In this document: positions 2,269 to 47,332 of the stretch, piece by piece
Layout of the letters: every line of letters starts with the position of its first letter
How positions within the stretch are numbered: the first letter of the stretch is position 1
Assembly (NCBI RefSeq): GCF_900105685.1
Contig: NZ_LT629781.1
Location: 2,046,001 to 2,110,000 of the forward strand
DNA: 64,000 bases
Direction: 5' to 3'
DNA from: Verrucomicrobium sp. GAS474
Lineage (GTDB): Bacteria > Verrucomicrobiota > Verrucomicrobiia > Methylacidiphilales > GAS474
Translations under genes and position numbers: made by a program
Notes under the pieces: generated by a model
The model's database searches: none
What the model saw: only the letters and a program-made list of their open reading frames with translations
Told to the model about the DNA's origin: nothing

Positions 2269-2323
2269 GCCCCAGAAGTAACTCTTGGCCTCTCACGAAG
2301 GCCAGAGCTTGGTTGCATGACAG

Positions 2324-3364
2324 TTAACTCCCCGTCACGTCCGACCGTATCCGCCGGACCGTGGGGCCCGGCTTCCACTCCGAGGTGACGTGGACCATGC
2401 GCGGATGGGTGGGCAAGCCGTACTGGTTCCCTTCGAGAAGGGAGATCAGTAGCTCGACGGCGACGGCCCCCATCTCCCCGCGGAGCTGGTCGATCCCCGC
2501 GTAAGGATCGCCGGGAAGGATGCGGTCGAGCGAGGCGTAGCCGATTTCCTTCGGAACCCGGAAGCCGGCGTCCCGGAGCAGGTGGAGGGGGTCCTCGATG
2601 TTGCTGACGATCACGTCGGGCTCGTGTTTCTCGATCCATTGCAGGGCCTTCGTCGGGCTCCATTTCGGAACGATGAGCGGCGGGACGCGGAGCGCGGCGG
2701 GCTGGCGCTGGTTGTGGAGCAGGAAGCGGGCGAGCCAGCCCTGGTTGCTCCGCTCGCTTTGGTCGACCAGGCTGGTGAAGCCGATCTTCCGGTAGCCGAG
2801 ATGGCGTAGCTCGTGGAGGAGCTGGGACATGCCCTGGAACTGGGAGTGGACGACGCGGTGAAGGTCGGGCTTCAGGAGAGTGCTGCCGGTGGTGACGGTG
2901 GCGAAGTGGGACCAATCGAGGGAGAAATGGCCCGAGGGGCGGGGAAGGGTGCTCAGGAGCAGTCCCCGGATGCCGCGGGTATAGAGGATCTTGGTCAGCC
3001 GTTTCGCGTTGAGCCCCGGCTCCTTCGCCCAGAATTCCTCGATCTCGTAGCCCAGCTCTTCCGCCCGGACGCAGGCGCGTTGAAACGCACTGGTGTCCTG
3101 GTGCCCTTTCCTCCAGCCGTCCCGCGTATCCCACAGGGTGAGGAAGGCGAGCTTCTCCGTGGCGCGATTGCGGCGGGTGGTCCGGAGCTGGGTCATCAGC
3201 GTCGAGACGAGAGGATCGCGGCTGTACCCGGATGCCGAGGCGAGGTCGACGATCTTCTTCCGCGTCGCCTCGGAGATGCGCGGATGGTTCCGCAGCGCCA
3301 GCGAGACGGTCGCATGGGAACATCCGGCCATCGCGGCCAGCTGGCGGGTGGTGATCGAGGCCAT
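2324..3364 (-). CDS. LacI-family transcriptional regulator
   Basis: A 346-residue DNA-binding regulator. The N-terminal helix-turn-helix (residues about 3-27, with ATVSLALRNHPRIS) and hinge-like region are typical of LacI regulators in Verrucomicrobia. A periplasmic-binding-protein-like effector domain follows from about residue 60. An in-frame TTG at 3382 would add six residues; the ATG at 3364 places the HTH at the usual distance from the N-terminus and is preferred. The gene is upstream of the GH28 gene on the same strand and divergent from the PEP-CTERM repeat protein. A GTTAAC-containing site lies in the divergent intergenic region and another overlaps its own stop codon, ahead of GH28. 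It may therefore control pectin degradation, the cassette to its right, or both; this is inferred from position only. Confidence 0.92.
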   Translation of the reverse strand: MASITTRQLAAMAGCSHATVSLALRNHPRISEATRKKIVDLASASGYSRDPLVSTLMTQLRTTRRNRATEKLAFLTLWDTRDGWRKGHQDTSAFQRACVRAEELGYEIEEFWAKEPGLNAKRLTKILYTRGIRGLLLSTLPRPSGHFSLDWSHFATVTTGSTLLKPDLHRVVHSQFQGMSQLLHELRHLGYRKIGFTSLVDQSERSNQGWLARFLLHNQRQPAALRVPPLIVPKWSPTKALQWIEKHEPDVIVSNIEDPLHLLRDAGFRVPKEIGYASLDRILPGDPYAGIDQLRGEMGAVAVELLISLLEGNQYGLPTHPRMVHVTSEWKPGPTVRRIRSDVTGS

Positions 3365-3395: not shown

Positions 3396-3414
3396 TCAAC
3401 TGTTAACCGATTGG
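3396..3414. promoter_or_regulatory. Candidate LacI-type operator in divergent promoter region
   Basis: The stretch TCAACTGTTAACCGATTGG lies between the divergent LacI gene and the PEP-CTERM repeat gene. It has a GTTAAC core followed by an imperfect dyad centred on CG (AACCGATT), the layout typical of LacI-family half sites. A second core, CAGTTAACT at 2321-2329, overlaps the lacI stop and precedes GH28. Binding is not shown. Confidence 0.4.
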
Positions 3415-3469: not shown

Positions 3470-5251
3470 ATGAAAATCCTCCTTCGCTGGCCCGTCTTGG
3501 CGCTCGTTCTGGTTTCCCTCACCTCGGCAGTGCCCGGCCTGCGCGCGGCGACGGTGACGTGGGATGCGACCTCCGGCACCACCGGCGCTCAGGACGGCAC
3601 GGGGGCGTGGAGCAGCAGTTCCACCGCCTTCTGGAACGGGAGCGCCGACGTGACGGCAGGCACCTCGGACACGGTGACCTTCGGTTCCGCCACATCGCTG
3701 GCGGCGGCCTATACGGTCACACTCGGAGGGAACGTGACGGTGGGGAACCTCGCCTTCAGCTACAGCGGGGCGAACAACTACACGATTGCCGGATCGACGT
3801 ACACGATCACGTTGGGCGGGGCGGGCGGGACCGGAGCCGCGACGATCACCGCCACCTCGGGGACGAGCACGGCCATCGCGCCGGTGATCAGCGCCAACCT
3901 GGCGAACAGCGGTGGGCTGAGCCTCGTCGGCGGATCGGCAACGCTCAATTCCTCGCTTACTTTTTCGGGAACCAACACCTTCTCCGGAGGTCTCACGCTC
4001 GGAGACGGGACGAACCTGATCCTCTTGACTGCGAACAGCCAAGCGGCTCTCGGAACGGGGGCGGTGACGATCAACCCGAACGCCACCCTCCGCCTCAACG
4101 GGAGTTTCATTACCTCATCGGCCCAGACGATCAGCCTCGCGGGAGGGACCGGCGACGGCGGGCGCGGCTTGATCGATCTCTATGGAAACGGCAGCGGCGT
4201 CGCCGGGACCGTCACGCTGACGGGGAACGCCTCCCGGATCCGGATCGACGTGCTGACCGGCACCATTTCCGGAAACATCGGGGAGAGCGGTGGCTCGCAG
4301 TCCCTGGAGTACTACGGGGGGACGGTGAACAATGTCCTCTCCATCACGGGGAACAACACCTACAGCGGCGGCACTCTCGTCACGGCGGGGTCGTCGGGGA
4401 AGTCCTTCACCGTCGCCGTCTCGGCCGACTCGGCTTTCGGTGCCGTCCCCGCCTCGGCCTCGACGAACCTCACCTTCGCGGGCACCGGCACGACGGTCCT
4501 CCAGGCGACGGGCTCGTTCACCCTCAACGCGAAACGCAACATCGTCCTCTCGAGCGCGGGACACACCTTCGACACGCAGGCCTACAACCTCACCATCGGC
4601 GGCGTCGTCTCGGGGACGACCCCGGTCTCGAAGATCGGCTCCGGAACGCTCACCCTCGCCGGGGCGAACACCTACACCGGGGCGACCTCCGTCAGCGCGG
4701 GCACCCTCTCCGTGACGGGGAGCCTCGCGAACACCGCCGTCTCCGTCGCCTCCGGGGCGACGCTGACCGGCACCGGGACGATCGCCGGGGCGACGACAGT
4801 GGCCTCCGGCGGCACGCTGGCGGCGGGGACGGCGACAGGCACCTCGCTCACCCTCGCCAATGGCCTGACGATGGCCTCGGGCTCGACGCTCGCCTTCGTC
4901 CTCGGCTCCGGCAACACCTCCTCGACCCTGACGCTGGGGGGAACGGCCTCCCTCGCCTCGACGTTGTACATCGATCTCCTGAACATCCAGGCCGGGACCT
5001 ACTCGAACATCATCACCGGACTCGCCTCCGATCCCGGCGAATCGGGCTGGACGCTGACCTCCGACGACAACGGGTACAGCGCCCAGTTCAGCTACAGCGC
5101 CGGAAACCTCAGCGTGACGGTCGTCGCCGTGCCGGAGCCGCCGGTCGCCGCTCTCCTCGGCGCGTTCGGGACGGTCTGGGGGGCGGGCGGCCTGCTCCGG
5201 CGCCGCCTTTTCCGGCGGAAAGGACGCCCGGACGCGGGAGCCATTCTGTAG
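3470..5251 (+). CDS. Autotransporter-associated beta-strand repeat protein with PEP-CTERM anchor
   Basis: A 593-residue exported surface protein. The ATG at 3470 begins a good signal peptide (MKILLRWPVLALVLVSLTS, cleavage near LRAA); an in-frame TTG three codons upstream is less likely. The body is rich in Gly, Thr and Ser, with alternating hydrophobic residues and repeated units such as LTLAGANTYTGATSVSAGTL, which match the autotransporter-associated beta-strand repeat. There is no C-terminal outer-membrane barrel. Instead the protein ends in VPEP, a hydrophobic stretch and an Arg-rich tail (RRRLFRRK), which is the PEP-CTERM sorting signal processed by exosortase-type enzymes. No exosortase gene is in the window. 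It sits directly upstream of the Verru_Chthon cassette in the same direction and is plausibly a structural or adhesive partner of it. Confidence 0.85.
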   Translation: MKILLRWPVLALVLVSLTSAVPGLRAATVTWDATSGTTGAQDGTGAWSSSSTAFWNGSADVTAGTSDTVTFGSATSLAAAYTVTLGGNVTVGNLAFSYSGANNYTIAGSTYTITLGGAGGTGAATITATSGTSTAIAPVISANLANSGGLSLVGGSATLNSSLTFSGTNTFSGGLTLGDGTNLILLTANSQAALGTGAVTINPNATLRLNGSFITSSAQTISLAGGTGDGGRGLIDLYGNGSGVAGTVTLTGNASRIRIDVLTGTISGNIGESGGSQSLEYYGGTVNNVLSITGNNTYSGGTLVTAGSSGKSFTVAVSADSAFGAVPASASTNLTFAGTGTTVLQATGSFTLNAKRNIVLSSAGHTFDTQAYNLTIGGVVSGTTPVSKIGSGTLTLAGANTYTGATSVSAGTLSVTGSLANTAVSVASGATLTGTGTIAGATTVASGGTLAAGTATGTSLTLANGLTMASGSTLAFVLGSGNTSSTLTLGGTASLASTLYIDLLNIQAGTYSNIITGLASDPGESGWTLTSDDNGYSAQFSYSAGNLSVTVVAVPEPPVAALLGAFGTVWGAGGLLRRRLFRRKGRPDAGAIL

Positions 5252-5304
5252 GGGACACTTCTTCCCGGCGGTGATAGCCTGGGAAGGAGAGTGCCGGCCA
5301 TTCT

Positions 5305-5802
5305 ATGACGCTCATCTGCCGCCAAACGAGGGACGTGGGGAAAGGAGACCTTGCCTTGCCTCCCAGGCCAGGCAAATTCGTCTCCCCTTGTTCTCGCGTC
5401 GCTCACGCGACGGCCTTCAGCCTGATCGAGGCGGTGATCGCGATCGGCATCGTCTCCCTCGCGATGGTCTCCCTCCTCGGCGTCATCCCGATCGGCCTGA
5501 AGACGTTCCGGTCGGCGGCGGCGACGTCGACCGAGGCCGAGGTGGTACGGGACGTCGTCAGCCGGGTCCTCGCCGCCGATGCCACGAACCTCGTCGCCCG
5601 GACCTATTACTTCACCGACGAAGGCCTTCCCGTCGCCTCGGCGGGCGATCCGCAGAGGGCCTTCACGGTCCTGGTCAGCGCGTCGAAGGTGTCCGGCGGC
5701 CTCCTGACGACGAACGCGAGCCAGGTCATCGTCTCGGTCGTGGGGCGGACGGCCACGGAGACCAACAGCTACTTCGCGATCGTCCCTTCGGCGGTCCGCT
5801 GA
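5305..5802 (+). CDS. Verru_Chthon cassette protein B-like pseudopilin
   Basis: A 165-residue protein with a type IV prepilin-like N-terminus: FSLIEAVIAIGIVSLAMVSL follows Ala, with Glu at position +5 and a hydrophobic helix. The cleavage-site residue is Ala rather than the usual Gly. The leader is long (37 residues) if the ATG at 5305 is used. An alternative TTG start at 5356 has an AAAGGAG ribosome binding site eight bases upstream and would give a more ordinary leader of about 20 residues. Size and position in a four-gene set match the family called Verru_Chthon cassette protein B. These cassettes are described only from sequence and their function is unknown. The ATG of the next gene follows the stop codon with two bases between. 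Confidence 0.75.
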   Translation: MTLICRQTRDVGKGDLALPPRPGKFVSPCSRVAHATAFSLIEAVIAIGIVSLAMVSLLGVIPIGLKTFRSAAATSTEAEVVRDVVSRVLAADATNLVARTYYFTDEGLPVASAGDPQRAFTVLVSASKVSGGLLTTNASQVIVSVVGRTATETNSYFAIVPSAVR

Positions 5803-5804
5803 CC

Positions 5805-6767
5805 ATGCCTCTGTCATCCCGCCTTCCGCTCTCTTTGCGCCGTGGCTTTACGCTCGTCGAGATTCTTTGCGCCGCCACGATCGCCCTCCTCGTGATGGCC
5901 GTCGTCCTCGGCGTCACCATCCAGGCGGCGAACGCCCAGCGGAGCACCGGCGCGAAGATCGGCTCCTTCCAACGGGCACGCGCCGCCTTCGACATCCTCG
6001 CGCAGACCCTCGGCCAGGCGACGCTCAACACGACGCTGGCCTACGACAACGCCGCCGCCCCCACGGCCCACATCCGCTCTTCCGACCTCCAGTTCATTTC
6101 CGGCAAAACTCTCGTCCCGAGCCAGGTCACCCACGCCGTCTTTTTCCAGGCCCCGCTCGGCTACTCCAGCCAATCCTCCTACGCCCTTCTCGGCGGGGCG
6201 CTCAACGCGTGCGGTTTCTTCATCCAGTACGGCCCGGACCCCTCCCGCCCCTCCTTCCTGGAGCGCCTTGGCGCAACGCGACCGGTCGTCGCCCGCCGCT
6301 TCCGCCTCATGCAGTTCCTCCAGCCGACGGAGAACTTCGCCCTCTACGACGCATCGGCGGCGGGGAACACCTCGTGGTTCTCCTCCGCGCTCGCGGCGAA
6401 CAGCCACGAGATCGCCGACGACATCATCGCGTTGGTGATCCTTCCCCGCGACCAGAGCGCCGCCCCTCTGGTCTCCGACTACGAATACGATTCCCGCGCG
6501 GGGGCGGCGGTCCGTCCCCAGCCGGTCACCGCTCACCAGCTCCCCCCCCTCGTGGAGATTGTCCTCGTCGCCCTCGACGAGACGAGCGCCCAGCAGCTCG
6601 GCGACACGAAGGAGGCTCCGGACGTCGGCCTCGCGGGGCTCTTTGTCTCGGCCTCGCGGCTGGAGGACGATCTTCGCGTCTTGGGGCTGCGGCTCGCGGA
6701 ACGCCATCTCACCTACCGCGTCTTCCGGACGACCCTCTCGCTGCCGGGGGCGAAGTGGAGCCTGTGA
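5805..6767 (+). CDS. Verru_Chthon cassette protein C-like pseudopilin
   Basis: A 320-residue prepilin-like protein. The start ATG at 5805 gives a short basic leader (MPLSSRLPLSLRRG) followed by FTLVEILCAATIALLVMAVV, a canonical Gly|Phe cleavage site with Glu at +5. The C-terminal domain resembles the large minor pseudopilins (GspJ-like) in size but has no motif I can name. It is the second gene of the cassette, two bases after gene B and four bases before gene A. Processing would need a prepilin peptidase, which is not in this window. Confidence 0.78.
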   Translation: MPLSSRLPLSLRRGFTLVEILCAATIALLVMAVVLGVTIQAANAQRSTGAKIGSFQRARAAFDILAQTLGQATLNTTLAYDNAAAPTAHIRSSDLQFISGKTLVPSQVTHAVFFQAPLGYSSQSSYALLGGALNACGFFIQYGPDPSRPSFLERLGATRPVVARRFRLMQFLQPTENFALYDASAAGNTSWFSSALAANSHEIADDIIALVILPRDQSAAPLVSDYEYDSRAGAAVRPQPVTAHQLPPLVEIVLVALDETSAQQLGDTKEAPDVGLAGLFVSASRLEDDLRVLGLRLAERHLTYRVFRTTLSLPGAKWSL

Positions 6768-6771
6768 CCCC

Positions 6772-9700
6772 ATGAGGACGCCGATACATTTGCGCCGCCG
6801 CCGGGGTTTCTCCCTCGTTATCGTCCTCGGCAGCCTGATCCTGATGGCCGGGCTCGTGGTGGTTTTCCTGGGCCGGGTGACGACGGAACTTCACGCCTCG
6901 AAGACCTATGCACAGGGGAGCTATTCCCGGCTCCTCGCCCAGTCGGCCCTCAATGTCGTCGTCAGCCAGATCACGGCGGGGACGAAGGGCGTCGCCCCGG
7001 ACGGCGGGACGCTGGCCTGGGCCTCCCAGCCCGGGATGATTCGGACGTACGACGCGGCGGGGGCACCGAGGCAGTATTTCAAGCTCTACTCCTCCGCTTC
7101 GCTCGCGGGAGACGGTGCCTTCGATCCCTCGGGCGACGCCGTCCCCGCGAAATGGTACCAGCAGCCGGCGCTCTGGACTGACCTCAACCAGCCCGTCCAG
7201 ATCAACGGCGCGAGCCGCTATCCGATCCTCGACGGGAACAGCCTGACGTTGAAGGCGACCGGCGTCGACGGTACGAAGGGCCTCACCTACGACGACGGCA
7301 GCGGGCAGGCTGCGGTCTCGGGATTCTACGTGAGCGCGGCCACGCCGACGGCGACGGGCTCGGGGAGCAACCCCGTCCCGATGCCTGTCCGGTGGCTCTA
7401 CGTCCTGGCCGACGGCACCCTCGTCTCGCCCAAAGGGACCTCGTCCTCGCTGGCGACGATACCGGGGGCGACGGCGGCGAACCCCGTCGTCGGGCGGATC
7501 GCCTTCTGGACCGACGACGAGACCTGCAAGGTGAATGTGAACACGGCCTCCGAGGGATCGTCTTGGGACTCTCCGCGCGTGGCGACGAAGGAGGACTTCA
7601 ACCTCGCCCTCTACCAGCCCGCCCGGAACGAATTCCAGCGCTATCCCGGCCATCCGGCCGGGGTGGCGCTCAGTTCGGTCTTCACCGGTCTCTCCTCCGA
7701 TCCGAAATTTCCCGAGGATTTCTATCCCGTCACGCCGCGCGTCGCCGCCGGAGGATCGAAGGGGGGGACCGTCGCCCCGAGCGCCTCCCTTTCGACGCGG
7801 ACCTCCCGCCTCTACGCCACGCCCGAGGACCTGATGTTCCAGCCCTCCCTCAGCGGCGGGACACGGGCGACGAATGCCGCGCTTTTGCAAGGGAAGGCGG
7901 CGGCGCAGTGGGCCCCTGCGGCGCTGGCGCGCAGCCGCTTCTTCGTCACCGCGGTCAGCCGCGCCCCCGACGTGAACCTCTTCAACCTGCCGCGGGTCTC
8001 GATCTGGCCCGTCACCCTGAATGCTTCCGGGACGCCGACCGTGACGCCGTTCGACGTCCGGGCCGCCTTTGCCGCGACGATGCGGACCGACCTCAAGGTC
8101 CCCTACCGCTACTACTTCGAGCGGCAGAACGCGAACGATCCCAACGTCGACCTCCCGACCGCGTCGTCGACCGGGGGGCTGGGCCGGAACCGGATGCTCC
8201 TCGAATACCTGCGCCGCCTCACCTCGGCGCAGATCCCCGGCTTCGGCGGGAGCTTCGCGGCGAAATATGTGGCCTCGAACCCCTCCGGCGGCGGGGGCAT
8301 CGAGCGGGACCAGATCCTCACCGAGATCTTCGATTATATTCGATGCACAAACCTGCGGGACAGCACCCTCTGGACGGGAACCTCCGGCGCGGCGGCGACG
8401 AATTGGACGGGGGCCTACAGCCAGATCATCGTCCCATCAACCGACACGCTGAATTACTCCCGGCTGGCGGGCCTCGGGCAGGTGGTGCCGATCGAAGACA
8501 CGACGACGGGAACGCGCGGCTTTGGTCGCTTCCCGACGGTGGCGGGCGCCTACCTCCAGTTCATCGGCGTGGCGAACAGCGCCACGACGGGGGTCACACC
8601 CGCCGTCGCCGCCGGGAACCTCCGGATCCAGGCGGGGTTCTTCCTCCAGATGTTCGACCCCTCGCAGGGCGTGCCGACGAACCGGCCGTGGTTCGGGGTG
8701 AAGGTCAGCGGACTCGGCTCGTTCCAGTGGAACGGGAACGCGATGGGCTTCCCTGCCGCGGGCGACGTTGGGTATCCGATGCACACCAACGCGTCGCTGA
8801 GCTCCCTGGCCTACTACGGCGGTGCCGTCGACCCCCGGATCTTCTTCTATGGCCGGGGCGCGGCCACGGCGACGCAGTACCCCCTCGTCAGCGGCACGAT
8901 CGATCTTCCGATCTCCACCGGGTCGTTCCCCTTCCAGGGCGGCGACGTGACGGTCGAGGTCTACTCCCTCGACGCCTCCGGCAACTCCTCGACGGTCCAG
9001 ACCGTGACGATGAATTTTCCCGCGGCCACCTTTCCCCTGCCCAGCGCCGTGGCCCCCTCCTCGATCACGCCGACCGGAAGCACGACGGCCTACGATTTTC
9101 GTTCCTTTTACGACGTCGTGAGCGGCAGCGCGACCACCAAGGGACGCTTCTCCGCCGACTCGCCGCTCCTGCCGGTCTCGAAGACCGACGTCGTCCGGAG
9201 CGTTGTTCCGGCGGCGGGGGATCCCCGCCTGATCGCGGCGATGAAGAAGGCCCCCGCGTCGCTCTTCACGTCCTTCGCGAGCTACTCCGACAAGACCATG
9301 CCGTTCGCCTTCAACGCGCGGGCTGGCATCGGCTACCCCTTCTACGGCTCGTCGATGGGCGGGCTGGTCTCCAGCGTGAGCTATCCCGGGACGACGGCCT
9401 TCGCCGGCACCTATTACAAGCAGAACGATCCCGCCATTACCGCCACCGGCGGTCTCTACTTCATCATCCCGAAGGACCCGCAGGTCCTCTCCCAGGCCTC
9501 GGTGACCCAGACGGGCGGCGTCGCCGCCGACTGGGACAATGGCCTGGCGAACCTCTCCGACGGTCCCTACATCAACAAGCCCGACGAAGGGGACGTGGGC
9601 AACACCACCTACAAGCCCTATTTTCAGCTCGATTACACCGGTACCTGGACCCTGCCGGGCAGCACCTATTTCTCCCCGAACCGGATCGTCCCCTCGGCCG

Positions 9701-10554
9701 CGATGTTCGGCTCCCTCCCGACGGGTGTCTTCGGCGGGAAGGCCTGGCAGACGCTTCTCTTCCGCCCGGGTCCGGCGAACCATCCCGGCCTGGGCGTGCC
9801 CGTCGCCGGACCTCCCTACACGGTTCCACCGGACCATCTCCTCCTCGATCTCTTCACGATGCCGGTCGTCGAGCCCTACCCGATCAGCGACCATCTCTCG
9901 ACGGCGGGCCGGGTTAACATGAACTACCAGATCGTTCCCTTCACTTACGTGAACCGGGACACGGCGGTGCGCGCCGCGCTGAAGGCGCAGAAGCTCCTCG
10001 CGATCCCGAGCACCGCGGCACAGACCTACAAGTATCCCGGCGTGATGGGCGGGGGCGGACCGACGAATGCCAGCCAGTATCGGATGACCCTCAACGCCGA
10101 CGCGACCCTGCTCCAGTTCCTGGCCCGCTTCGGTGCCGGGGACCTCTTCCGCTCGGCCTCGGAGATCTGCTCCGTCGACCTCGTCCCGAGCGATGGCCCC
10201 TCGAACCCGACCCGCGCCTCGATGGACGCCTATTGGTCGGCTCGCGCTCTCACCGGGGACAACTCGCGAGAGCGGCCCTACGCGAACCTCTATCCGCTCC
10301 TCACGACGAAATCGAACACCTTCACCGTCTACGTCCGCGTCCAGGCGCTGAAGAAGGCGGGGAACTCCGACCCGACGGTCTGGCGCGAGGGGACCGATCT
10401 CGTCACCGACGAGTACCGGGGATCGACAGTCGTCGAGCGCTATGTCGACCCGAACGACTCGAGTCTGCCCGACTTCGCCGACACCTCAACGAACACCCCC
10501 TTGAGCCGGTTCTACAAGATCCGGCTCTACAACCCGAAGTCGTTCTCTCCATGA
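6772..10554 (+). CDS. Verru_Chthon cassette protein A-like large exported protein
   Basis: A 1260-residue protein, the large member of the cassette. The ATG at 6772 gives a leader with RRRRG followed by FSLVIVLGSLILMAGLVVVF. This is a prepilin-like segment but with Val instead of Glu at +5, as in the GspK class that caps pseudopili. The remainder is a long, Thr/Ser/Gly-rich extracytoplasmic region without recognisable catalytic motifs. The segment FWTDDETCKVNVNTASEG near residue 245 recalls the GspK-type pattern in which N-N-T/E-A residues follow a short strand, so it may be a much enlarged GspK-like tip protein. That is an inference from the N-terminus and operon position. The stop codon overlaps the start of gene D (ATGA). 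Confidence 0.78.
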   Translation: MRTPIHLRRRRGFSLVIVLGSLILMAGLVVVFLGRVTTELHASKTYAQGSYSRLLAQSALNVVVSQITAGTKGVAPDGGTLAWASQPGMIRTYDAAGAPRQYFKLYSSASLAGDGAFDPSGDAVPAKWYQQPALWTDLNQPVQINGASRYPILDGNSLTLKATGVDGTKGLTYDDGSGQAAVSGFYVSAATPTATGSGSNPVPMPVRWLYVLADGTLVSPKGTSSSLATIPGATAANPVVGRIAFWTDDETCKVNVNTASEGSSWDSPRVATKEDFNLALYQPARNEFQRYPGHPAGVALSSVFTGLSSDPKFPEDFYPVTPRVAAGGSKGGTVAPSASLSTRTSRLYATPEDLMFQPSLSGGTRATNAALLQGKAAAQWAPAALARSRFFVTAVSRAPDVNLFNLPRVSIWPVTLNASGTPTVTPFDVRAAFAATMRTDLKVPYRYYFERQNANDPNVDLPTASSTGGLGRNRMLLEYLRRLTSAQIPGFGGSFAAKYVASNPSGGGGIERDQILTEIFDYIRCTNLRDSTLWTGTSGAAATNWTGAYSQIIVPSTDTLNYSRLAGLGQVVPIEDTTTGTRGFGRFPTVAGAYLQFIGVANSATTGVTPAVAAGNLRIQAGFFLQMFDPSQGVPTNRPWFGVKVSGLGSFQWNGNAMGFPAAGDVGYPMHTNASLSSLAYYGGAVDPRIFFYGRGAATATQYPLVSGTIDLPISTGSFPFQGGDVTVEVYSLDASGNSSTVQTVTMNFPAATFPLPSAVAPSSITPTGSTTAYDFRSFYDVVSGSATTKGRFSADSPLLPVSKTDVVRSVVPAAGDPRLIAAMKKAPASLFTSFASYSDKTMPFAFNARAGIGYPFYGSSMGGLVSSVSYPGTTAFAGTYYKQNDPAITATGGLYFIIPKDPQVLSQASVTQTGGVAADWDNGLANLSDGPYINKPDEGDVGNTTYKPYFQLDYTGTWTLPGSTYFSPNRIVPSAAMFGSLPTGVFGGKAWQTLLFRPGPANHPGLGVPVAGPPYTVPPDHLLLDLFTMPVVEPYPISDHLSTAGRVNMNYQIVPFTYVNRDTAVRAALKAQKLLAIPSTAAQTYKYPGVMGGGGPTNASQYRMTLNADATLLQFLARFGAGDLFRSASEICSVDLVPSDGPSNPTRASMDAYWSARALTGDNSRERPYANLYPLLTTKSNTFTVYVRVQALKKAGNSDPTVWREGTDLVTDEYRGSTVVERYVDPNDSSLPDFADTSTNTPLSRFYKIRLYNPKSFSP

Positions 10555-11189
10555 AGGCGGCGCATCCTTATGGGCGTCGAGCGTTCAGCCTCATCGAGCT
10601 GCTTCTTGCCCTCGCCATCATCTCCGTTCTGATCTCGCTGCCGATGATCGCCGTCCATTCCAGCGCGCGGAGCGTCGGCCTCACCGCCGCGGGCGAAATG
10701 GTAGCCGATCAGTTCAACCAGGCTCGCCAGACTGCCGTCGCGCGGAACCGGCCGGTGGAGGTCCGGATCTACAAGCTCCCCGCCTACGACGCCGGGAGGG
10801 GGGAGATCGAGCCCCGGGTCTTTCGCGCGCTCCAGGCTTTCGTGATCGATGATTCCGGGGACGTCCCCATCGCGCCGCCCTGCTACTTCTCCGCCCCCGT
10901 TGTCTGCTCCTCGCAGGAGGAGGAATCGGGGCTGCTGCGGCTGAAGGAAAAAGATCCTCCCACGGGCGCCCCGAAGTTGGGAAACCTCGGCCTCCATTAC
11001 CGCTATATCTCCTTCCAGTTCCGTCCGAACGGCTACGCCGCCACCTCGGACGACGAGGAGACCCTCACGATCGCGAATTCCTTCGTCACGCTGGTCCTCG
11101 GCGGCGATCGCACGCTCTCCGGCGGAGGCGATTACGCCATGATCCACCTCGATCCGATCACGGGCCGGACGCGGATCTATCGGCCCTAG
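10551..11189 (+). CDS. Verru_Chthon cassette protein D-like pseudopilin
   Basis: A 212-residue prepilin-like protein starting at the ATG that overlaps the stop of gene A, which implies translational coupling. The leader MKAAHPYGRRA precedes FSLIELLLALAIISVLISLP. Glu is at +5, but the residue before Phe is Ala, as in gene B. The mature part (AAGEMVADQFNQARQTAVARN) has the GspH-like pattern of a helix ending in an arginine-rich turn before a beta domain. It ends the cassette; the next gene is convergent. The family corresponds to Verru_Chthon cassette protein D. Confidence 0.78.
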   Translation: MKAAHPYGRRAFSLIELLLALAIISVLISLPMIAVHSSARSVGLTAAGEMVADQFNQARQTAVARNRPVEVRIYKLPAYDAGRGEIEPRVFRALQAFVIDDSGDVPIAPPCYFSAPVVCSSQEEESGLLRLKEKDPPTGAPKLGNLGLHYRYISFQFRPNGYAATSDDEETLTIANSFVTLVLGGDRTLSGGGDYAMIHLDPITGRTRIYRP

Positions 11190-11202: not shown

Positions 11203-14025
11203 TTACTGGTTGAAGACCGCCCGGCCCCACCCTTTCCGCTCGGCCGAGTTCTTGTCCGTGCCGTTCCACATGAACTGGCGCTTCCGCGTCTTGCCGTCCT
11301 CCGAGTCGTCGATGCCCAGGTCGAACAGGGCCTCGTCACCCTGCTTCGGCGTGAAACCGAGGACGGAAAAGGGAATCGCGGCCTCGAGGATGTAGCCCTG
11401 GCCGTTCACGTTGGGCAGGACGGTCATGGGTATCGCGGGCTGCGGATCGCGCCCGGGGGCCAGGGAGCGGGGCTGGGTGCCGTCCGTATTGGCGGCGAGG
11501 AGGAACTGCCGATCGGAGGCCAGGGGCGCGCCCGGCTCGTTGAGCTGCGTGGGACCGAGGAAGAGCTCGACGCAATCTCCCTGCCAGAAGCGGGCGACGT
11601 CCTTCTGGGCCTTCATCGGCGTCGGATCGACGACGTTCACCAGGAGGTAGAGGTTGGCGTCGTCCCAGCAGACCTTGAACGTGGCATCGACGCCGCCGTC
11701 GTCGGCCCCCTGGACGAGACGCCGCCCGAGGCCTTCCGCCGGCGTGCCGGGCCAGTTCTCCGCGCCGCCGTCGAGCTTGATCGGGCCGAGGGCGCGGGGA
11801 ACCTTGACGATCTTGTTGCCGCCCTTCGCCATCTGGAACCGGGGATTGTCGTAGACGAACGGCTTCCGCTCCCCGAGGAGGACCGGGTAGATCTCGTGGT
11901 TCGTCTTCGCCATCTCGGCGATCATCTCCTTCCACGGGCGGTCGGCGACGGAGAAGAGTCCGATGTTGCCATTCTCCCCGTTGTACTTCGAGAACCAGCG
12001 CCCCGTGAGGGGCTGGTCGACGAGGGAGAACCACTCGATGCCGACGATGTAGCCGGTGGCGGCGGCCTGCTCGACGTAGTTGCGGTAGGCGAGGCCGCGC
12101 TCGACCTGGCTTCCCACGTCCTTCGCGCCGCCCGGCAGGCCGGAGTCCTTCGGCGAGTCCCAATGGAATTCGCTCAGGAACATCGGCTTCCCTCCGGCCC
12201 ATTTGTCGATCTGGTTGAGGAAATCGGTGTCGAGGACGTAGGTATAATAGTTGAAGGAGATGACGTCGAGGTACTTGCCCATGGCGCGGCAGAGAACCTC
12301 GTTGTTGATCGTCCCATGCTGGAGACGATTCCCGATGAGCATGTGGTTCGGATCGTACTGGCGGGCGGTGGAGCTCATCCAGCCGAAGTAGGCGTCGAAG
12401 TAGAGCTCCATGTAGGCCTTCATGTCGGCGTTCGCCTGGGGGGTCGAGACGGCGAGAGCCTGGTCGGCCAGCTCGTCGAACGTCTTCGCGGGGAGGTTCC
12501 AGGCGGCGGAGAAAGCCTCGACCGTCCCGTATTTCGTGCGAAGCATCTCGACGAGGCGCCGCTTGCAGGCGTTCTGGCTTCCCTTGAGGGTCGGGATCAC
12601 CCGGGGCAGGTCCTCGTAAAGGGGTTCGTTCTCCAGGTAGTAGCCGATGAGGAGCGGATCGGCGGCCTTCGCCGGAAGGGCCTCGGCGCAGAGCTTGTCG
12701 AACTTGGCGCGGGTCTCCTCGTCGAAGGGGTCGGGGATATGGGCCGTGCCCGGAATGCTCCGCAGCCCCTTGTTCGGCAGGCCCGAAACATAGGGGAAGG
12801 AAAGCTCCGCATGGGCCGGAGTGAAGGGGCTGAACGCGCCGCCCGAGTTGAAGCCGAACTGGCGGACGCGCCCGATCATACGCCGCGCGAAGTCGGCGTC
12901 CTCGACCGGCTTCCCGTATTTGCGGATCAGATTGGCCGAATGGAAGGAGAAGTTGTCGACCTCGTTGCCGTTGTGGAAAGCGCTCTGGTAGGGACCTTGG
13001 AGCGGCGGAAGCCATTCGTAGATCTCGCGGCGGCCCCCGACGTAGGTGTAATCGTGCGGCAGGAAGCTGCAGACGCCGAGGTGGAAGAAGGCGTTGCCGT
13101 CGGGATCGGCGAGGAACCATTTCCCGTTCTTCTGCTCCACGTGGAAGAAGCCGGTCTTCTTCAGACCGAACTTCTCCTGGCTGCCGGGCAGGCCCCCGAA
13201 GCGGTCGAGGGCGGGAGGCTTGAAGGAGGCATAATAAGCCTCGTCGGCGGCGATGTCGGCCTTGAGCTCGTCCTCCGACTTCAGCTTCCCGGGCCAGTCG
13301 AAGCGGGTGTTCTGGCCGAACGCGTCGACCTGCTTCGCCGGGGCGGTGGGCTTCGCCGCTCCGGGACCGTCGGCGGGCCGGACGGTGACGGTCAGGGGGG
13401 TGTTGGGATTCGGGAAGAAATTCCAACGCCACGCGAAGACCTTCCATCCCCAGGCCCGGTTGTCGGTCAGCTGGTTGTAGGCCGAAGAGGAGAAGGAGAG
13501 CGTGAGGCCGATCCCATCGCCCTGACGGAGGGTGAAGGAACCGGCCTGGCCCTGGTAAAGATGGGGCTTCTCGCCCTGTTCCGGAGGGAAGGGCGCCGCG
13601 GAGGCGTCGTCGAATCGCCACGTTCCGCCGTTGGTGAAATTGAAGCTGACGAGACTCAGGACGGAGGCCTGCTTTACCTCGGCGGGAAGGTTCGAGAAGG
13701 CGTAGCGGAGGGTGTGTTCGGGGGTGACGGAGATCTGGAGCGTGATGCCTCCCTCGTACTTGAGGAGCGCCTCGCCTCCCGAAGGGGCCGTTTCGAGGAG
13801 CTTGCGGATTTCCTTTCCGGCACCGTCGCAAAGCTTCGGATAATCGAGGCGGAACTGCAGCGTCCCGCCGCCGTCGACGAGCACGCCCTGATCTTGGGGC
13901 GTGATCGTCTGCGCGACGAAACCAAGGCCGGGAGCGGCGCAGAGCAGGAGGGAGAGAATCAACCGTCGCGCGCGACGAAAGGGCAAAGGGAAAGAACGAA
14001 GGCAGGGCATGTCGCGTTCCATCAT
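11203..14025 (-). CDS. Clan GH-A glycoside hydrolase (GH50/agarase-like) with C-terminal CBM9-like domain
   Basis: A 940-residue secreted glycosidase. It has an N-terminal signal peptide (LILSLLLCAAPGLG) and a beta-rich N-terminal domain to about residue 285. The TIM barrel that follows begins with GFFHVEQKNGKWFLADPDGN, the entry typical of beta-agarase-type families. The acid/base is probably Glu467 in ENEPL and the nucleophile Glu619 in LSEFHWDS, both at the ends of strands 4 and 7 as in clan GH-A. Residues from about 755 to the end form a domain like carbohydrate-binding module 9 (CWDDANLYLLVNVVDPTP and DCVELFLGP). Start codons at 14025, 14022 and 14010 are all possible. The exact substrate, whether agar, porphyran or another galactan, cannot be read from sequence. 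The gene is divergent from the GH26-like gene. Confidence 0.82.
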   Translation of the reverse strand: MMERDMPCLRSFPLPFRRARRLILSLLLCAAPGLGFVAQTITPQDQGVLVDGGGTLQFRLDYPKLCDGAGKEIRKLLETAPSGGEALLKYEGGITLQISVTPEHTLRYAFSNLPAEVKQASVLSLVSFNFTNGGTWRFDDASAAPFPPEQGEKPHLYQGQAGSFTLRQGDGIGLTLSFSSSAYNQLTDNRAWGWKVFAWRWNFFPNPNTPLTVTVRPADGPGAAKPTAPAKQVDAFGQNTRFDWPGKLKSEDELKADIAADEAYYASFKPPALDRFGGLPGSQEKFGLKKTGFFHVEQKNGKWFLADPDGNAFFHLGVCSFLPHDYTYVGGRREIYEWLPPLQGPYQSAFHNGNEVDNFSFHSANLIRKYGKPVEDADFARRMIGRVRQFGFNSGGAFSPFTPAHAELSFPYVSGLPNKGLRSIPGTAHIPDPFDEETRAKFDKLCAEALPAKAADPLLIGYYLENEPLYEDLPRVIPTLKGSQNACKRRLVEMLRTKYGTVEAFSAAWNLPAKTFDELADQALAVSTPQANADMKAYMELYFDAYFGWMSSTARQYDPNHMLIGNRLQHGTINNEVLCRAMGKYLDVISFNYYTYVLDTDFLNQIDKWAGGKPMFLSEFHWDSPKDSGLPGGAKDVGSQVERGLAYRNYVEQAAATGYIVGIEWFSLVDQPLTGRWFSKYNGENGNIGLFSVADRPWKEMIAEMAKTNHEIYPVLLGERKPFVYDNPRFQMAKGGNKIVKVPRALGPIKLDGGAENWPGTPAEGLGRRLVQGADDGGVDATFKVCWDDANLYLLVNVVDPTPMKAQKDVARFWQGDCVELFLGPTQLNEPGAPLASDRQFLLAANTDGTQPRSLAPGRDPQPAIPMTVLPNVNGQGYILEAAIPFSVLGFTPKQGDEALFDLGIDDSEDGKTRKRQFMWNGTDKNSAERKGWGRAVFNQ

Positions 14026-14064: not shown

Positions 14065-14099
14065 CAGTTGACCGGCGCGTTGTCAGGCAGGGTTAACTG
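14065..14099. promoter_or_regulatory. Candidate operator region between divergent hydrolase genes
   Basis: CAGTTGACC at 14065-14073 and GGTTAACTG at 14091-14099 lie between the GH50-like and GH26-like genes. The second is the reverse complement of CAGTTAACC and matches the core seen near the LacI gene at 3.4 kb. The two divergent hydrolases could share this control region. Only similarity of short cores supports it. Confidence 0.3.
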
Positions 14100-27100: not shown

Positions 27101-27136
27101 GGTTAACAGGTTGATAATCGGGAGAAACCCGTTATC
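27101..27136 (+). promoter_or_regulatory. Inverted repeat and GTTAAC core upstream of the chemoreceptor
   Basis: GGTTAACAG at 27101-27109 is followed by an imperfect inverted repeat, GATAATCGGG (27113-27122) and CCCGTTATC (27128-27136) around AGAAA. The right arm ends eight bases before the ATG at 27145, so it could act as an operator or as an RNA hairpin near the start. Confidence 0.35.
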
Positions 27137-27144: not shown

Positions 27145-29112
27145 ATGACCACCCGCTTTCAGCTCCATCATAAAGTTCTTTTGGCCGGGATCGTCGCCAC
27201 GCTGGGGTTGTGCGTGGCCAGCCTCGTCGGTCTCCGCGTCCTCTACCATCAGGCCGAAAAGGAGTCGTTCGAGAGCGCCGACAAGATCCGCCAAAACATC
27301 GCCTTCCAGCTCGAGACGAACGACACGGTCTACTCCCAGCTCGTCCTGTCGGCGATGAAGGTCCTGCAGGAGAAGGTCGAGGCCGCCGCCGTCCCCGCTC
27401 CCGCGCTGCTCCCGGCTCCCGCCGTGGCGGCCAAGCCGGGCGTTCCTGCTCCCGTCCCCGCCCCGGCCAAGGAAGCCGATCCCTACGCCGTCGTCGATCA
27501 GGTGAAGGCCCTGACCGGCAGCACCGCCACCCTCTTCGCGAAGAGCGGCGAGACCTTCACCCGCGTCAGCACGAACGTCCTGAAGCCCGACGGGACCCGG
27601 GCCGTCGGCACCCCCCTCGATCCGAACGGGGCCGCCTACGCCGCGCTGAGCCAGGGCAAGGCCTACTACGGCCTCGTCAACATCCTCGGCCAGCCCTACC
27701 TCACCGGCTACGAGCCGCAGCGCAACGCGGAGAACGTCGTGACCGGCGCGCTCTACGTCGGCTACCCGCTCACGACGATGACGAAGCTCCGCGAGCTGAT
27801 CGCGGGCGCCCGCATCCTCAACCACGGCTTCATCGCCCTCATCGACAACAAGGGGAAAGTCATCATGCAGTCGAGCCACATCGAGGCGGCCCAGGTCGAG
27901 AGCCTCCTCCAGCCCGGCGCGGGTGAGAAGGCGGGCTGGAACATCGTCCGGGATCGCTTCCCCGCCTGGAACTACGAGATCGTCTCCGGCGTCAACCTGC
28001 AGGACGCCCGCGCCCAGGCCGTCGGCCTCTCCCTGAAGGTCTTCGGCGTCATCGCCGTCGGCATCCTCCTCATCCTCGGCATCCTCGCCCTCTTCTACGC
28101 GGAGTCCCACTCCCTCACCAGCGGCCTGAAGCGGATCGGCGCGCAGCTCCACCATTCCTCCGACACCCTCAACGAGACCGCCGTCCAGGTCGCCGGGGCG
28201 AGCGAGTCGGTCGCCGCCACCGCCGTCCAGGAAGCCGCCGCCCTGGAGCAGAGCAGCGCCTCGATCGAGGAGATGTCCTCGATCTCCGCGAGCAACAGCA
28301 GCCGGATGGAGGCCGCCCAGCGCCATTCCTCCGACACCCGCCTCCTCGCCGAGACCGGCGTCGACGAGATGCGCCACATGCGCGACGAGGTGAAGGTCAT
28401 CCAGAACTCGGGCAGCGAGATGATCGGCGCGATGGAGGCGATCCGGCAGTCGAGCGCCTCGATCTCGAAGATCATGCGGACCATCGACGAGATCGCCTTC
28501 CAGACGAACATCCTCGCGTTGAACGCCGCCGTCGAGGCCGCCCGCGCGGGCGAGGCCGGGGCCGGGTTCGCCGTCGTTGCCGACGAGGTCCGGAACCTCG
28601 CCCAGCGGAGCGCCGACGCCTCCCAGGAGACGGCCCGCCTCATCGAGGACTCGATCGCGAAGAGCGCCAACGGGAGCCGCATCAGCAGCCGCGTCGCCGA
28701 GCAGCTGGAGAAGGTCATCAACCAGGCGGGCGCCGTCGACCGCCGCCTCCAGGAGATCGTCGGGAAGATGAACGAGACCGACGCCCTCATGCAGGAAGTC
28801 GGCACCGCCACCCGCGAGCAGAACATCGGCCTCCAGCAGGTCAGCACCGGCGTCCTCGAAATGTCGAAGCTGACCCAGTCGAACGTCGCCAACTCCCAGG
28901 AAACCGCCCGTGTCTCGCAGAACCTCCAGGAAGAGGCGGGCCAGCTCCACGCCGTCATCTCCGACCTCCTCCACATCATCGGGGGGAAGGAATCCCCCGC
29001 GGGATTGCCCCAGCGGACGACGTTGAAATCGGAACGGGTCGACCGGATGGCCTTGAAGGGCGGAACCGCGACGGCGAGGAAGCCGAAGGCGGTGGTGCCT
29101 CGGCTGAAGTAG
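27145..29112 (+). CDS. Methyl-accepting chemotaxis protein with Cache-type sensor
   Basis: A 655-residue inner-membrane chemoreceptor. TM1 is at about residues 10-30; the periplasmic region includes an Ala/Pro-rich insert (about 72-110) and a Cache domain similar to Cache3/Cache2 types. TM2 is at about 295-317. No clear HAMP domain follows; residues run directly into the helical signalling part. The highly conserved tip ([20 protein letters not shown]) binds CheA and CheW and is intact, with methylation-type helices on both sides. There is no C-terminal CheR-binding pentapeptide. No other chemotaxis gene is nearby, so it must signal to an array encoded elsewhere. The ligand is unknown. Confidence 0.93.
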
Positions 29113-41757: not shown

Positions 41758-43020
41758 TTAGTGGGCCTTGAGGCCCGAGACGGCGGAAAAGATGCCGGTG
41801 ATCATCGAGAAGGCGACGACGCCGACGACGAGCGCCATCACGAGAACGATCGTCGGCTGGATGATGGCGGTGAGGCGCTGGATCTTGATGTTCAATTCCT
41901 TGTCGTAGCGGGTGCCGATTTTCTCCAGCGAGGTCGAGAGATCGCCGGTCTGTTCCCCGACGGCGACCATGTCGATCAGCGTCGGCGGGAATTCGCCGAC
42001 GCGCTGGAAGGCCCGGGAGAGGGTTCCCCCTTCGCTGACCATCGCCACGACGCGGGAGAGCTGCCCGCGCAGATGGGTGTTCCCCGTCGCCGCCTCCATG
42101 AGGCGGAGGGCATTGAGGAGGGGGATGCCGCTCCCGACCATCGTCGCCAGCGTCTGGGAGAGCTGGACGTAGTAGCGGGAGGAGATGACGGCGCCGACGA
42201 GGGGGAGGCGGAGCTGGGCGCGGTCCCACCAGGCGCGGCCCTCGGTCGTCTGGATATAGCTCCAGAAGCCGAAGGCGAGGCCGCCCGCGGCGAGGGCGAC
42301 GGCCCACCACCACGTGGCGATGAAGTTGCTGGAGAGGATCAGGAGCCGGGTGAGGAGCGGCTGCTCGGTCCCGGTCTTCGAGAAAAGCATGGTGAGGTTC
42401 GGGACGAGGACGACCATGAAGACGACCATGAGCCCGGCCCCCGCGAGGGTCATGAAGGCCGGATAGATGAGGGCCTGGATGACGCGGCTGCGGAGTTCCT
42501 GCATGGCGGCGAGGAAGCGCGACTGCCGCCGGAGGATCTGCGGGAGCGCGCCGCTCAACTCGCCCGCCTCGGCGAGGCGGCAGTAGAGCTCGCCGAAGCT
42601 GGCCGAGGTCCGCCGCAGGGCGACGGAGAAGCTGACGCCGTCCCGGATCTCCTCGCGGAGCCGGGCGACGACGCCCTTCAGCTTCGTCAGCTCGCTCCGC
42701 TGGGACATGAGGCGGAGGGCGGGCTCGAGCTGGAGCCCGGCGTCGAGGAGGTCGCTGATCTCGTCGGTGAAGTGGACGATCTGGGTGGCGTTCAGCGCGA
42801 GGGAACCGGCCTCGGCGAAGGACGAGGCGGGATTGCGGTCGGGATCGTCGGCGGCGGTCCCTGCGCCTGCGCCGGTCCCGAGGGGCTTCGGACGGACGGA
42901 GATCGGCTGGAGGCGTCCGGCCTCGAGCTTGTGGAGGGCGTCGCCCCGGGACTTCGCCTCGATCTCGCCCGAGGTGCGGGCGCCGCGCGCGTCGACGGCC
43001 TGGTAGACGAATAGGCTCAT
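41758..43020 (-). CDS. gspF: Type II secretion system inner-membrane protein GspF
   Basis: A 420-residue inner-membrane platform protein. Two T2SSF domains (residues about 80-205 and 285-405) each carry the conserved FTDEISDLLDAG-type and LSQTLATMVGSGIPLLNAL-type segments, and three membrane helices lie near residues 185-210, 235-255 and 390-415. An AGAGAGT-type linker at about residue 55 precedes the first domain. It is co-transcribed behind gspE with 21 bases between and has an AGAGGA ribosome binding site. Confidence 0.93.
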   Translation of the reverse strand: MSLFVYQAVDARGARTSGEIEAKSRGDALHKLEAGRLQPISVRPKPLGTGAGAGTAADDPDRNPASSFAEAGSLALNATQIVHFTDEISDLLDAGLQLEPALRLMSQRSELTKLKGVVARLREEIRDGVSFSVALRRTSASFGELYCRLAEAGELSGALPQILRRQSRFLAAMQELRSRVIQALIYPAFMTLAGAGLMVVFMVVLVPNLTMLFSKTGTEQPLLTRLLILSSNFIATWWWAVALAAGGLAFGFWSYIQTTEGRAWWDRAQLRLPLVGAVISSRYYVQLSQTLATMVGSGIPLLNALRLMEAATGNTHLRGQLSRVVAMVSEGGTLSRAFQRVGEFPPTLIDMVAVGEQTGDLSTSLEKIGTRYDKELNIKIQRLTAIIQPTIVLVMALVVGVVAFSMITGIFSAVSGLKAH

Positions 43021-43041
43021 CGGTTCCTCTTGCCGTTCATC

Positions 43042-44814
43042 CTATTCGTCGGCCAGCGCCGCGTCGGCGGAGGTGACGCGGAGGACTTCCTCGATGGTCG
43101 TCTTCCCGGCGGCGACCTGCCTCCAGCCGTATTGGCGGAGGCTGATCATCCCCTCCTCGGTCGCCTTCGCGCGGAGGACGTTGGCCGATTTCCGCTGGGT
43201 GATGAGGTCCTGGATGGCGGGGGAGATCTCGCAGATCTCGAGGAGGGCCATCCGGCCCTGGTAGCCGGTGCGGCGGCAGGCCTCGCAGCCGACCGACTTG
43301 AAGATGGTCCCGCCCGCGTGGGCGGGATAGCCGATCTCGGCGAGCTTCGCGACCGATTCCTCCGCCGGTTTCTTGCACCGGGGGCAGAGGACGCGGACGA
43401 GGCGCTGGGCGAGGAAGGCGCGGACCGAGGAGGAGACGAGGTAGGGATCGATCCCCATGTCGACGAGGCGGACGATGCCGCCGATCGAGTCGTTCGTGTG
43501 GAGGGTGCTGAAGACGAGGTGGCCGGTGAGGGAGGCGCGGATGGCGATCTCGGCGGTCTCGACGTCGCGCATTTCGCCGATCATCACGACGTTCGGATCG
43601 CCGCGGAGGATGCTGCGGAGGCCGGTGGCGAAGGTGAGGCCGATCTCGGGCTTCACGGCGATCTGGATGACGCCGGGGAGCTTGTACTCGACGGGGTCCT
43701 CGATGGTGACGATGCGGCGGGCCTGGGTGTTGATCGTCGAGAGGCAGGTGTAGAGCGTCGTCGACTTGCCGGAGCCGGTGGGGCCGGTGACGAGGACGAT
43801 GCCGTTGGGCTGCTTCAGCAGGCGCTCGACGATGGCGAGGGTCTCGGGCTCGAGCTGGAGGCGCTCGAAGTTGAACTGCTCCTGGCCGAGGAGGCGGAGG
43901 CTGACCGATTCCCCGAGGACCGAGGGGATCGTGGCGACGCGGACGTCGATCGGGCGGCCTTCGAGCTCGAGGTTGATGCGCCCGTCCTGGGGGAGCCGCC
44001 GCTCGGCGATGTCGAGGTGGGCCATGATCTTCAGCCGGGAGATGACCGAGTCCTGGAGGAGCCGGATCTGGGTCGGGACGGGGGTGGCGTGGAGGACGCC
44101 GTCGACGCGGTAGCGGATGCGGAGGTCGTCCTCCAGGGGCTCGATGTGGATGTCGGTCGCCCGCTCGCGGAGGGCCTCGCGGATGATCTGGTTGACGAAG
44201 CGGACGACGGAGGCCTCGGAGTCCTCGGCGTCGAGGACGGTCGTCTCCTGCTTGAGGTTCGAGAGGGCCTCGTCGATGTCGCGCCCCTCGAGGATCATGT
44301 CGAAGATCTCGGCCCCGACGCCGTAGCTCTGGCGGAGGCCTTCCTCGATCTTCGTCCGCGAGGCGAGGACCCACTGGACCGGTTCCCCGAGGGCCTGGGC
44401 GAGGCTCTGCCGGGCGATCCGGTTATAGGGATCGTGGGTCAGGAGCTTCAGCGGGCCGTCGTCCTCCTGGACGGGGAAGAGGCGGTGCTGGACGGCGAGG
44501 CGGACGGGGATCTTTTCCCGGAGCGGGGCGGGGATCGGCGGGAGGATGTCGCCCCACCAGGGGATATAGAGATGGGTGGCGAGGGACTGGAGGAAGGCGG
44601 CCTCGTCGACGATCTTCGCGTCGAGGAGGGCGTCGATGACCGAGTGCTGGCGGGTGGCGGCGTCGAGGCAGACCTCGGCGATCTTTTCCCGGCTTCCCGC
44701 TCCGCCGAGGGCGGCGGCGATCTCGACGATCTCGGCGAGGCTGGCCGTCATCCGCCGTCTGGGGGCCGGAGCCGGGGCGGACGCGGCGGGGATTTCAAGG
44801 GGGGTGGCGGACAT
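43042..44814 (-). CDS. gspE: Type II secretion system ATPase GspE
   Basis: A 590-residue hexameric ATPase that powers pseudopilus assembly. N-terminal GspE-type domain to about residue 170; Walker A GPTGSGKST (344-352), Asp box IEDPVEY (371-377), Walker B MIGEMRD (411-417) and His box STLHTND (436-442). A zinc-binding tetracysteine set, C-x-x-C near 477-480 and another in CEACRRTGY, is present as in GspE. It begins the leftward gspE-gspF unit and is divergent from the pseudopilin operon across 117 AT-richer bases that probably hold both promoters. Confidence 0.95.
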   Translation of the reverse strand: MSATPLEIPAASAPAPAPRRRMTASLAEIVEIAAALGGAGSREKIAEVCLDAATRQHSVIDALLDAKIVDEAAFLQSLATHLYIPWWGDILPPIPAPLREKIPVRLAVQHRLFPVQEDDGPLKLLTHDPYNRIARQSLAQALGEPVQWVLASRTKIEEGLRQSYGVGAEIFDMILEGRDIDEALSNLKQETTVLDAEDSEASVVRFVNQIIREALRERATDIHIEPLEDDLRIRYRVDGVLHATPVPTQIRLLQDSVISRLKIMAHLDIAERRLPQDGRINLELEGRPIDVRVATIPSVLGESVSLRLLGQEQFNFERLQLEPETLAIVERLLKQPNGIVLVTGPTGSGKSTTLYTCLSTINTQARRIVTIEDPVEYKLPGVIQIAVKPEIGLTFATGLRSILRGDPNVVMIGEMRDVETAEIAIRASLTGHLVFSTLHTNDSIGGIVRLVDMGIDPYLVSSSVRAFLAQRLVRVLCPRCKKPAEESVAKLAEIGYPAHAGGTIFKSVGCEACRRTGYQGRMALLEICEISPAIQDLITQRKSANVLRAKATEEGMISLRQYGWRQVAAGKTTIEEVLRVTSADAALADE

Positions 44815-44931
44815 GGACGGGGAGGTCTCTCTCTAGATAGCCCCTGTTTCCCTCCGAATTCAAATTGAAATGTCATTGCGATAATTTCTTTGTAACTCAC
44901 ACTCTTTTGGCGAGTCTTTCAATTGATCGGT

Positions 44932-45939: not shown

Positions 45940-45974
45940 CCCTTTCCGATCCTCACCCCACACCCTCCTCCATC

Positions 45975-47317: not shown

Positions 47318-47332
47318 GCGGAATGTAATGCA

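Follow-up and report, generated by a model that had tools for sequence, protein, structure and literature searches.

What role could four tightly packed prepilin-like genes, one of them giant, play directly behind a gene for a beta-strand-repeat protein? The question arises from a 64-kb stretch of DNA, hereafter the window, which covers positions 2,046,001-2,110,000 of the 3.76-Mb single-contig genome of Verrucomicrobium sp. GAS474. A previous sequence-only reading had recognized such a quartet there, with a GspK-like giant among its members, linked to a PEP-CTERM protein and a LacI regulator, and had proposed a dedicated pseudopilus that handles the repeat protein or a surface structure.

A prepilin-like quartet in a carbohydrate-utilization locus

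The cassette comprises four forward-strand genes in the order B-C-A-D, which span positions 5305-11189 of the window. Protein B (5305-5802, start codon uncertain) scores 68.5 bits against TIGR02598, above the NCBIfam cut-off of 51.4. Protein C (5805-6767, 320 aa) reaches 248.0 bits against TIGR02599, 8.5 bits short of the cut-off of 256.5, in a match that covers the full profile with an E-value of 1.7e-73, and it was aligned with 45 cassette C homologues at 31-58% identity. The giant protein A (6772-10554, 1260 aa) scores 964.9 bits against TIGR02600 (cut-off 332.3), and protein D (10551-11189, 212 aa) scores 91.9 bits against TIGR02596 (cut-off 70). Thus, A, B and D, in one group of adjacent genes, each lie above curated Verru_Chthon cut-offs, and the family matches do not arise by chance, since their E-values are as low as 1e-290. 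These matches bear out the existence of a prepilin-like quartet next to the repeat protein, from whose gene B is separated by 53 nt on the same strand; only 2 nt lie between B and C and 4 nt between C and A, and A and D overlap by 4 nt.

The upstream gene (3470-5251, forward strand) encodes a protein of 593 aa with a signal peptide, TIGR02601/PF12951 (PATR) repeats and a PEP-CTERM-like tail. The PEP-CTERM HMM gives it 12.6 bits, below the cut-off of 16, and the label therefore rests on the C-terminal motif visible by eye, VPEPP followed by a hydrophobic stretch and RRRLFRRK. Divergently from it runs the gene of a LacI-family regulator of 346 aa (2327-3364, reverse strand; PF00356, 33.7 bits), followed on the same strand by a GH28 enzyme (853-2268; PF00295, 85.3 bits). 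On the other side of the cassette, a reverse-strand gene (11203-14025) encodes a GH50 beta-agarase-like enzyme (beta-agarase 4bq2, E 1.5e-47) with a C-terminal CBM9 (PF06452). A GDSL esterase, a GH26 enzyme, a polysaccharide deacetylase, a GH3 enzyme and an SSF symporter are encoded at the left edge of the window or just beyond it. Clustered glycoside hydrolases, a transporter and a sugar regulator, the hallmarks of a polysaccharide utilization locus, are thus all present around the cassette (GH50-CBM9, GH28, GH26, GH3, deacetylase, GDSL, SSF and LacI), which sits within a carbohydrate-utilization locus.

Identity of the cassette proteins

The identity of the quartet as a minor-pseudopilin tip set is well supported, with B as the GspI-like, C as the GspJ-like, A as the GspK-like and D as the GspH-like member. 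When residue 5 of the mature N-terminus was surveyed in 69 other-genome cassettes of class 1, Glu5 was present in 61 of 61 B, 63 of 64 C and 58 of 58 D homologues, the lone C exception looking like a register error of the script, and it was absent from all 69 A homologues, as it is from the window A protein. Subunits lacking Glu5 are known in GspK and in its type IV pilus counterpart PilX (PMC7541494). The cassettes thus show the prepilin-signal pattern of a GspHIJK set, with Glu5 in the H-, I- and J-like proteins but not in the K-like one.

Structure prediction, which had been proposed as a check of the relation to pseudopilins, was positive for protein C. Its AlphaFold model (pLDDT 91.5) is predicted to have the GspJ fold: Foldseek against the PDB returned 9a1f_S as the best match (E 3e-4), followed by XcpW and EpsJ chains, with probabilities of about 1.0, and the top matches were almost all GspJ, although a single type IV-like pilin (5g23) also appeared there. 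Protein A matches the GspK model at its N-terminus only (19.3 bits). The model of an A homologue with 43% identity (pLDDT 86, pTM 0.89) shows a long N-terminal pilin-type helix, and its Foldseek search against the PDB gave no significant match, with GspK (3ci0_K) at rank 22 (E=1.1). No carbohydrate-binding fold was recognized in A in that PDB fold search, and profile searches of A and of its class-2 counterpart A' against PDB sequences found no match. When A is compared with the GspK encoded elsewhere in the window, only the N-terminus aligns; N-x-N motifs in A (DDETCKVNVNTA, GRVNMNY) recall those of that GspK, a likeness that may be taken as a hint only. Protein A is therefore called GspK-like because of its N-terminus, its lack of Glu5 and the gene order, its body having no such match, and in this sense the prediction of a GspK-like giant held.

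For the remaining members, D matches GspH with 31 bits (E 2e-7), below the cut-off, and among the class-2 proteins C' matches GspJ below the cut-off and B' matches PilV weakly; the assignments of D to GspH and of B to GspI, which come from sub-threshold matches and gene order, are accordingly putative. A search of a viral collection gave two partial relatives.

Seventeen cassettes, their neighbors and their candidate operators

The GAS474 genome carries 17 cassettes, of which seven belong to class 1 (TIGR02600) and ten to a second class. A TIGR02600 search of the genome returned the class-1 cassettes together with short N-terminal matches in giant ORFs; the reading of giant-ORF loci then gave eight class-2 cassettes, and the remaining prepilin loci another two. 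Class-2 cassettes (L016-L023, L195 and L196) contain three or four prepilin genes each, and their A-like giant, of 1059-1411 aa and with a C-terminal motif like VEGERRYWLHIAIDRYTGK, is matched by no Pfam family, and by no NCBIfam family over the full length; hhalign aligns A with A' over the first 62 residues only. Counted by position, 47 of the 55 prepilin-motif (N_methyl) matches in the genome fall within the 17 cassettes.

Gene orders within GAS474 come from a first gene caller, and those of the other named loci from a caller trained on each A gene. Several class-2 cassettes run D'-B'-C'-A', which corresponds to the H-I-J-K order of the T2SS operon, and class-1 cassettes mostly show BCAD, BCDA, ABCD or DBCA, the last of which (H-I-J-K) occurs in 4 of 69. 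Distances among A, B, C and D are correlated over 57 cassettes (Mantel r 0.63-0.76). Among the seven class-1 cassettes of GAS474, the A-C correlation rises to r=0.93, a value that species history cannot explain within a single genome; the correlation was r 0.48-0.61 in another genome with nine cassettes, and weak or absent in one with five.

Several further genes were observed at these loci. The cassette A gene of L015 (G000 1230900-1233994) is apparently split between two frames. An orphan D-like prepilin gene (L194:3547-4383) lies beside a GH1-like gene, both recognized by eye. Other giants of 1134-2016 aa stand at the side of cassettes (L009:14849-18988, L019:11561-17611 and L023:123-3527), and two of the three begin, by eye, like filamentous-haemagglutinin-type exoproteins.

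Scoring of the three best candidates from each of 194 sampled genomes of the phylum gave TIGR02600 matches above the cut-off in only four genomes. A culturable relative, Chthoniobacter flavus Ellin428, has at least five loci above this cut-off. At E<=0.001, TIGR02600 matches in 109 of the 194 genomes (e.g., G045, G170 and G186), nearly always at the N-terminus only and mostly in giant ORFs, which suggests that further giant K-like classes may exist in the phylum. The class-2 model matches only three of the 194 genomes at E<1e-20, and the other giant matches would therefore be further classes or other proteins. An exosortase was found in 144 of these genomes, so widely that a phylum profile with the exosortase does not discriminate; GAS474 has a single copy.

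The company kept by the cassettes was studied in GAS474 through circular-shift tests. A PEP-CTERM gene above the HMM cut-off lies within 10 kb of 12 of the 17 cassettes (2.26 expected, p=0.001), and of the 13 LacI regulators, 10 have a cassette within 10 kb (1.5 expected, p=0.002), so that the link to both kinds of protein, first noticed in the window, extends to the whole genome. The PEP-CTERM proteins and enzymes differ among the 17 loci. In other genomes, 42 of 698 neighboring genes are PEP-CTERM-like by a motif rule, versus 4 of 469 in random control stretches, which came from GAS474 and a few other genomes and not from those that carry these cassettes (p=2e-6). The proposed co-occurrence with beta-strand-repeat PEP-CTERM proteins stood in part: a PEP-CTERM-like gene occurs within about 10 kb of 31 of the 69 other-genome cassettes, that is, fewer than half, and PATR-like genes are concentrated at the cassette (9 of 125 adjacent genes versus 3 of 573 further out, p=2e-5), but only 12 neighboring genes of all 69 cassettes contain at least two PATR-like repeats. 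Among the 119 nearest neighbors, the leading Pfam families were the LacI-type sensor (7), acetyl xylan esterase (AXE1, 5), GH2 (4) and PATR (4), with CBM4_9 and SASA also found, and none of these six ranks among the 25 most frequent families in a control set of 119 proteins. The wider constant beside the cassettes is a carbohydrate-utilization locus, and not only repeat proteins.

A regulatory connection is suggested by short words in the promoter gaps. In the window, CWGTTAAC was noticed as common to two gaps and then searched for, post hoc, which gave four occurrences versus 0.42 expected. Genome-wide there are 18, four of them in the 14-kb locus of the window cassette, where each lies in a promoter gap: GH26/GDSL; upstream of the GH28 gene (CAGTTAAC, 2321-2328, forward strand); the divergent gap between LacI and the repeat protein (CTGTTAAC, 3400-3407, forward strand); and 5' of the GH50 gene (CAGTTAAC, 14092-14099, reverse strand). 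A fifth match in the neighborhood (27102-27109) precedes a 655-aa gene (27145-29112) unrelated to the locus. The case for these candidate operators is weaker than that of a second locus, L012, where a word search in other cassette loci found a common core in five of seven gaps, including those upstream of LacI and of a PEP-CTERM gene and the one that immediately precedes cassette gene A. With at most three mismatches, the L012 consensus AATCWAATTCGGATKWGATTTT matches the genome nine times at six places, all within 16 kb, and its reversed control gave no match in the genome. The sites are palindromic and of LacI type (L012:5089, 6398, 9034, 18216 and further ones; G000 3616083-3631941). As the motif was derived from its own sites, its presence there is by construction, and what the search shows is that it is confined to the locus. 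Of the six places, two had played no part in building the motif, and a single one of the five original sites diverges too far to be matched. Other common words, unlike this one, occur in the gaps of L021 and L011, uncorrected for multiple testing. Thus, at least one cassette has a private candidate operator in common with its regulator and PEP-CTERM gene, and several cassettes probably do; LacI regulators would bind these predicted sites.

A proposed shared chassis, its possible tips and known systems

The machinery that the cassette lacks, namely a major pseudopilin, an ATPase, a platform protein and a secretin, is found 30 kb away, in a T2SS operon of the same window (41758-53938) that has its own H-I-J-K genes. 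GspF and GspE (41758-44751, reverse strand) score 342 bits against TIGR02120 and 580 bits against TIGR02533, both below the curated cut-offs. The major pseudopilin GspG and the operon's own tip, GspH, I, J and K, follow on the forward strand (45975-49122); GspG (TIGR01710, 125 bits) is the only one of the eight matched models (GspF, E, G, H, I, J, K and M) above its curated cut-off, GspK reaching 87.6 bits and GspH, I and J less, all below theirs. The rest of the operon (49107-53938, forward strand) holds GspM (50398-50952, 42.3 bits) and L-, C- and D-like genes assigned by position only. PilB-, PilC- and PilT-type genes, which include the assembly and retraction ATPases of type IVa pili (T4aP), are also encoded in the genome, so that from sequence the chassis could be a T2SS or a T4aP.

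Given a single T2SS equipped with its own H-I-J-K, and 17 machine-less sets in or beside sugar loci, the simplest reading is that the cassettes provide substrate-specific, exchangeable minor-pseudopilin tips for one shared T2SS chassis, a hypothesis to which we give about even chances. Each of the 17 sets sits in, and probably belongs to, one substrate-specific carbohydrate-utilization locus, whose regulator would sense its sugar and allow the cassette, the PEP-CTERM surface protein and the glycoside hydrolases to be made together. The four cassette pseudopilins would form the tip, and the shaft (GspG), the motor (GspE/F) and the secretin would come from the single shared T2SS. At this tip, the very large A subunit would recognize the exoproteins of its own locus, which the tip would carry through the outer membrane, the PEP-CTERM proteins being then handled by the single exosortase. 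We infer the assembly with the T2SS, the choice of chassis, the recognition of cargo, the direction of transport and the mechanism itself from this arrangement of genes. In Pseudomonas, the T2SS tip complex is reported to bind substrates and to be critical for their recognition (PMC6211770).

The cassettes could instead be minor-pilin tips of T4aP acting as locus-specific adhesins, where the giant A attaches to a polysaccharide or a particle and the cell is kept there by the pilus. PilX shares with GspK the absence of Glu5, three minor-pilin clusters serve a single T4aP machine in Myxococcus (PMC7541494), Pil-type genes occur in GAS474, and the length of A, 1260 aa versus 328 aa in the T2SS GspK, is that expected of a fused adhesin. 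However, the model of C is closest above all to solved T2SS GspJ structures, A and A' match the GspK model at the N-terminus with no PilX model among the reported matches, and in reading the gene lists we noticed no PilY1 next to the cassettes. We regard the adhesin explanation as rather unlikely.

Less probable still are outward-facing tips that would capture polysaccharide and draw it up to or across the outer membrane, a role in which the pilus would be the counterpart of SusCD in Bacteroidota. The presence of one tip set per carbohydrate locus, together with sugar-type regulators, would suit such a role, as would the gold-labelled dextran seen on pili-like fibres at crateriform structures of Planctomycetes (PMC5394234); nevertheless, no carbohydrate-binding fold was recognized in A, and import by T2SS pseudopili is not known. 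An alginate-induced pseudopilin of a relative (PMC13274419), among the few induced genes outside its alginate clusters, fits export through tips, T4aP adhesins and capture alike. In a form that embraces export or capture, a plug-in system with one type II (or IV) chassis and one giant-tipped set per polysaccharide, induced with the matching enzymes and surface proteins and playing for Verrucomicrobiota the role that SusCD pairs have in Bacteroidota, is possible, and we propose it tentatively.

A pseudopilus dedicated to the adjacent repeat protein or to a surface layer seems quite improbable, even with that protein directly upstream in the same direction and PATR-like proteins enriched among immediate neighbors, because the cassette has no pseudopilus chassis, most cassettes have no PATR neighbor and the 17 loci differ in their PEP-CTERM proteins and enzymes. 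A pseudopilus of its own was rejected on account of the chassis genes lying outside the cassette, in the T2SS operon, and a role for the repeat protein alone on account of the few PATR neighbors and the varied carbohydrate genes at the cassettes. Finally, it is very improbable that the quartets are hitch-hiking duplicates moving with carbohydrate loci and lacking a locus-specific role, as the many copies per genome, the permuted gene orders and the frameshifted look of one A gene might suggest, when the four genes are kept and co-diverge in 57 cassettes, the Glu5 pattern is constant and a candidate operator directly precedes a cassette.

The way in which a T2SS recognizes folded cargo is a long-standing question. 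If exchangeable tips on a shared T2SS prove true, one chassis with 17 natural tip sets beside their likely cargo would allow the specificity of tip sets to be tested by swapping; four families known from sequence alone, and a second giant family as yet without a name, would gain a function, and a way in which Verrucomicrobiota handle polysaccharides at their surface would be suggested.

Among known systems, the Verru_Chthon families TIGR02598, TIGR02599, TIGR02600 and TIGR02596 are those to which the window quartet belongs, its genes lying together and matching full-length or nearly so. No function is attached to these families, which are named in none of the papers found in a literature search mostly outside subscription journals; proposed H-I-J-K roles, a putative shared T2SS chassis and a locus context are added here, together with a second class of ten cassettes whose giant subunit falls outside TIGR02600. 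The cassettes resemble the GspH-I-J-K tip of the Xcp and Eps T2SS in their four prepilin-type proteins, with Glu5 missing only in the K-like one, in the predicted GspJ fold of C and in the H-I-J-K order of several cassettes, but they differ in having no accompanying machine, in a K-like subunit about four times larger and in their number, 17 sets next to a single T2SS that already has a set. Minor-pilin/PilY1 clusters 1-3 of Myxococcus xanthus (PMC7541494) likewise represent several complete tip sets for one chassis, although there they are three, serve T4aP with a separate PilY1 and are not described as tied to carbohydrates, whereas in GAS474 each set is found in a sugar locus and no PilY1 was noticed in the gene lists. 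The pulG-like family of Verruconatronum alginivorum (PMC13274419) is also a case of multiplied verrucomicrobial pseudopilin genes, present in an alginate cluster, but its 67 homologues are single genes and form no quartet with a K-type giant. Compared with known minor-(pseudo)pilin clusters, the cassettes of GAS474 represent a variant of unusual scale.
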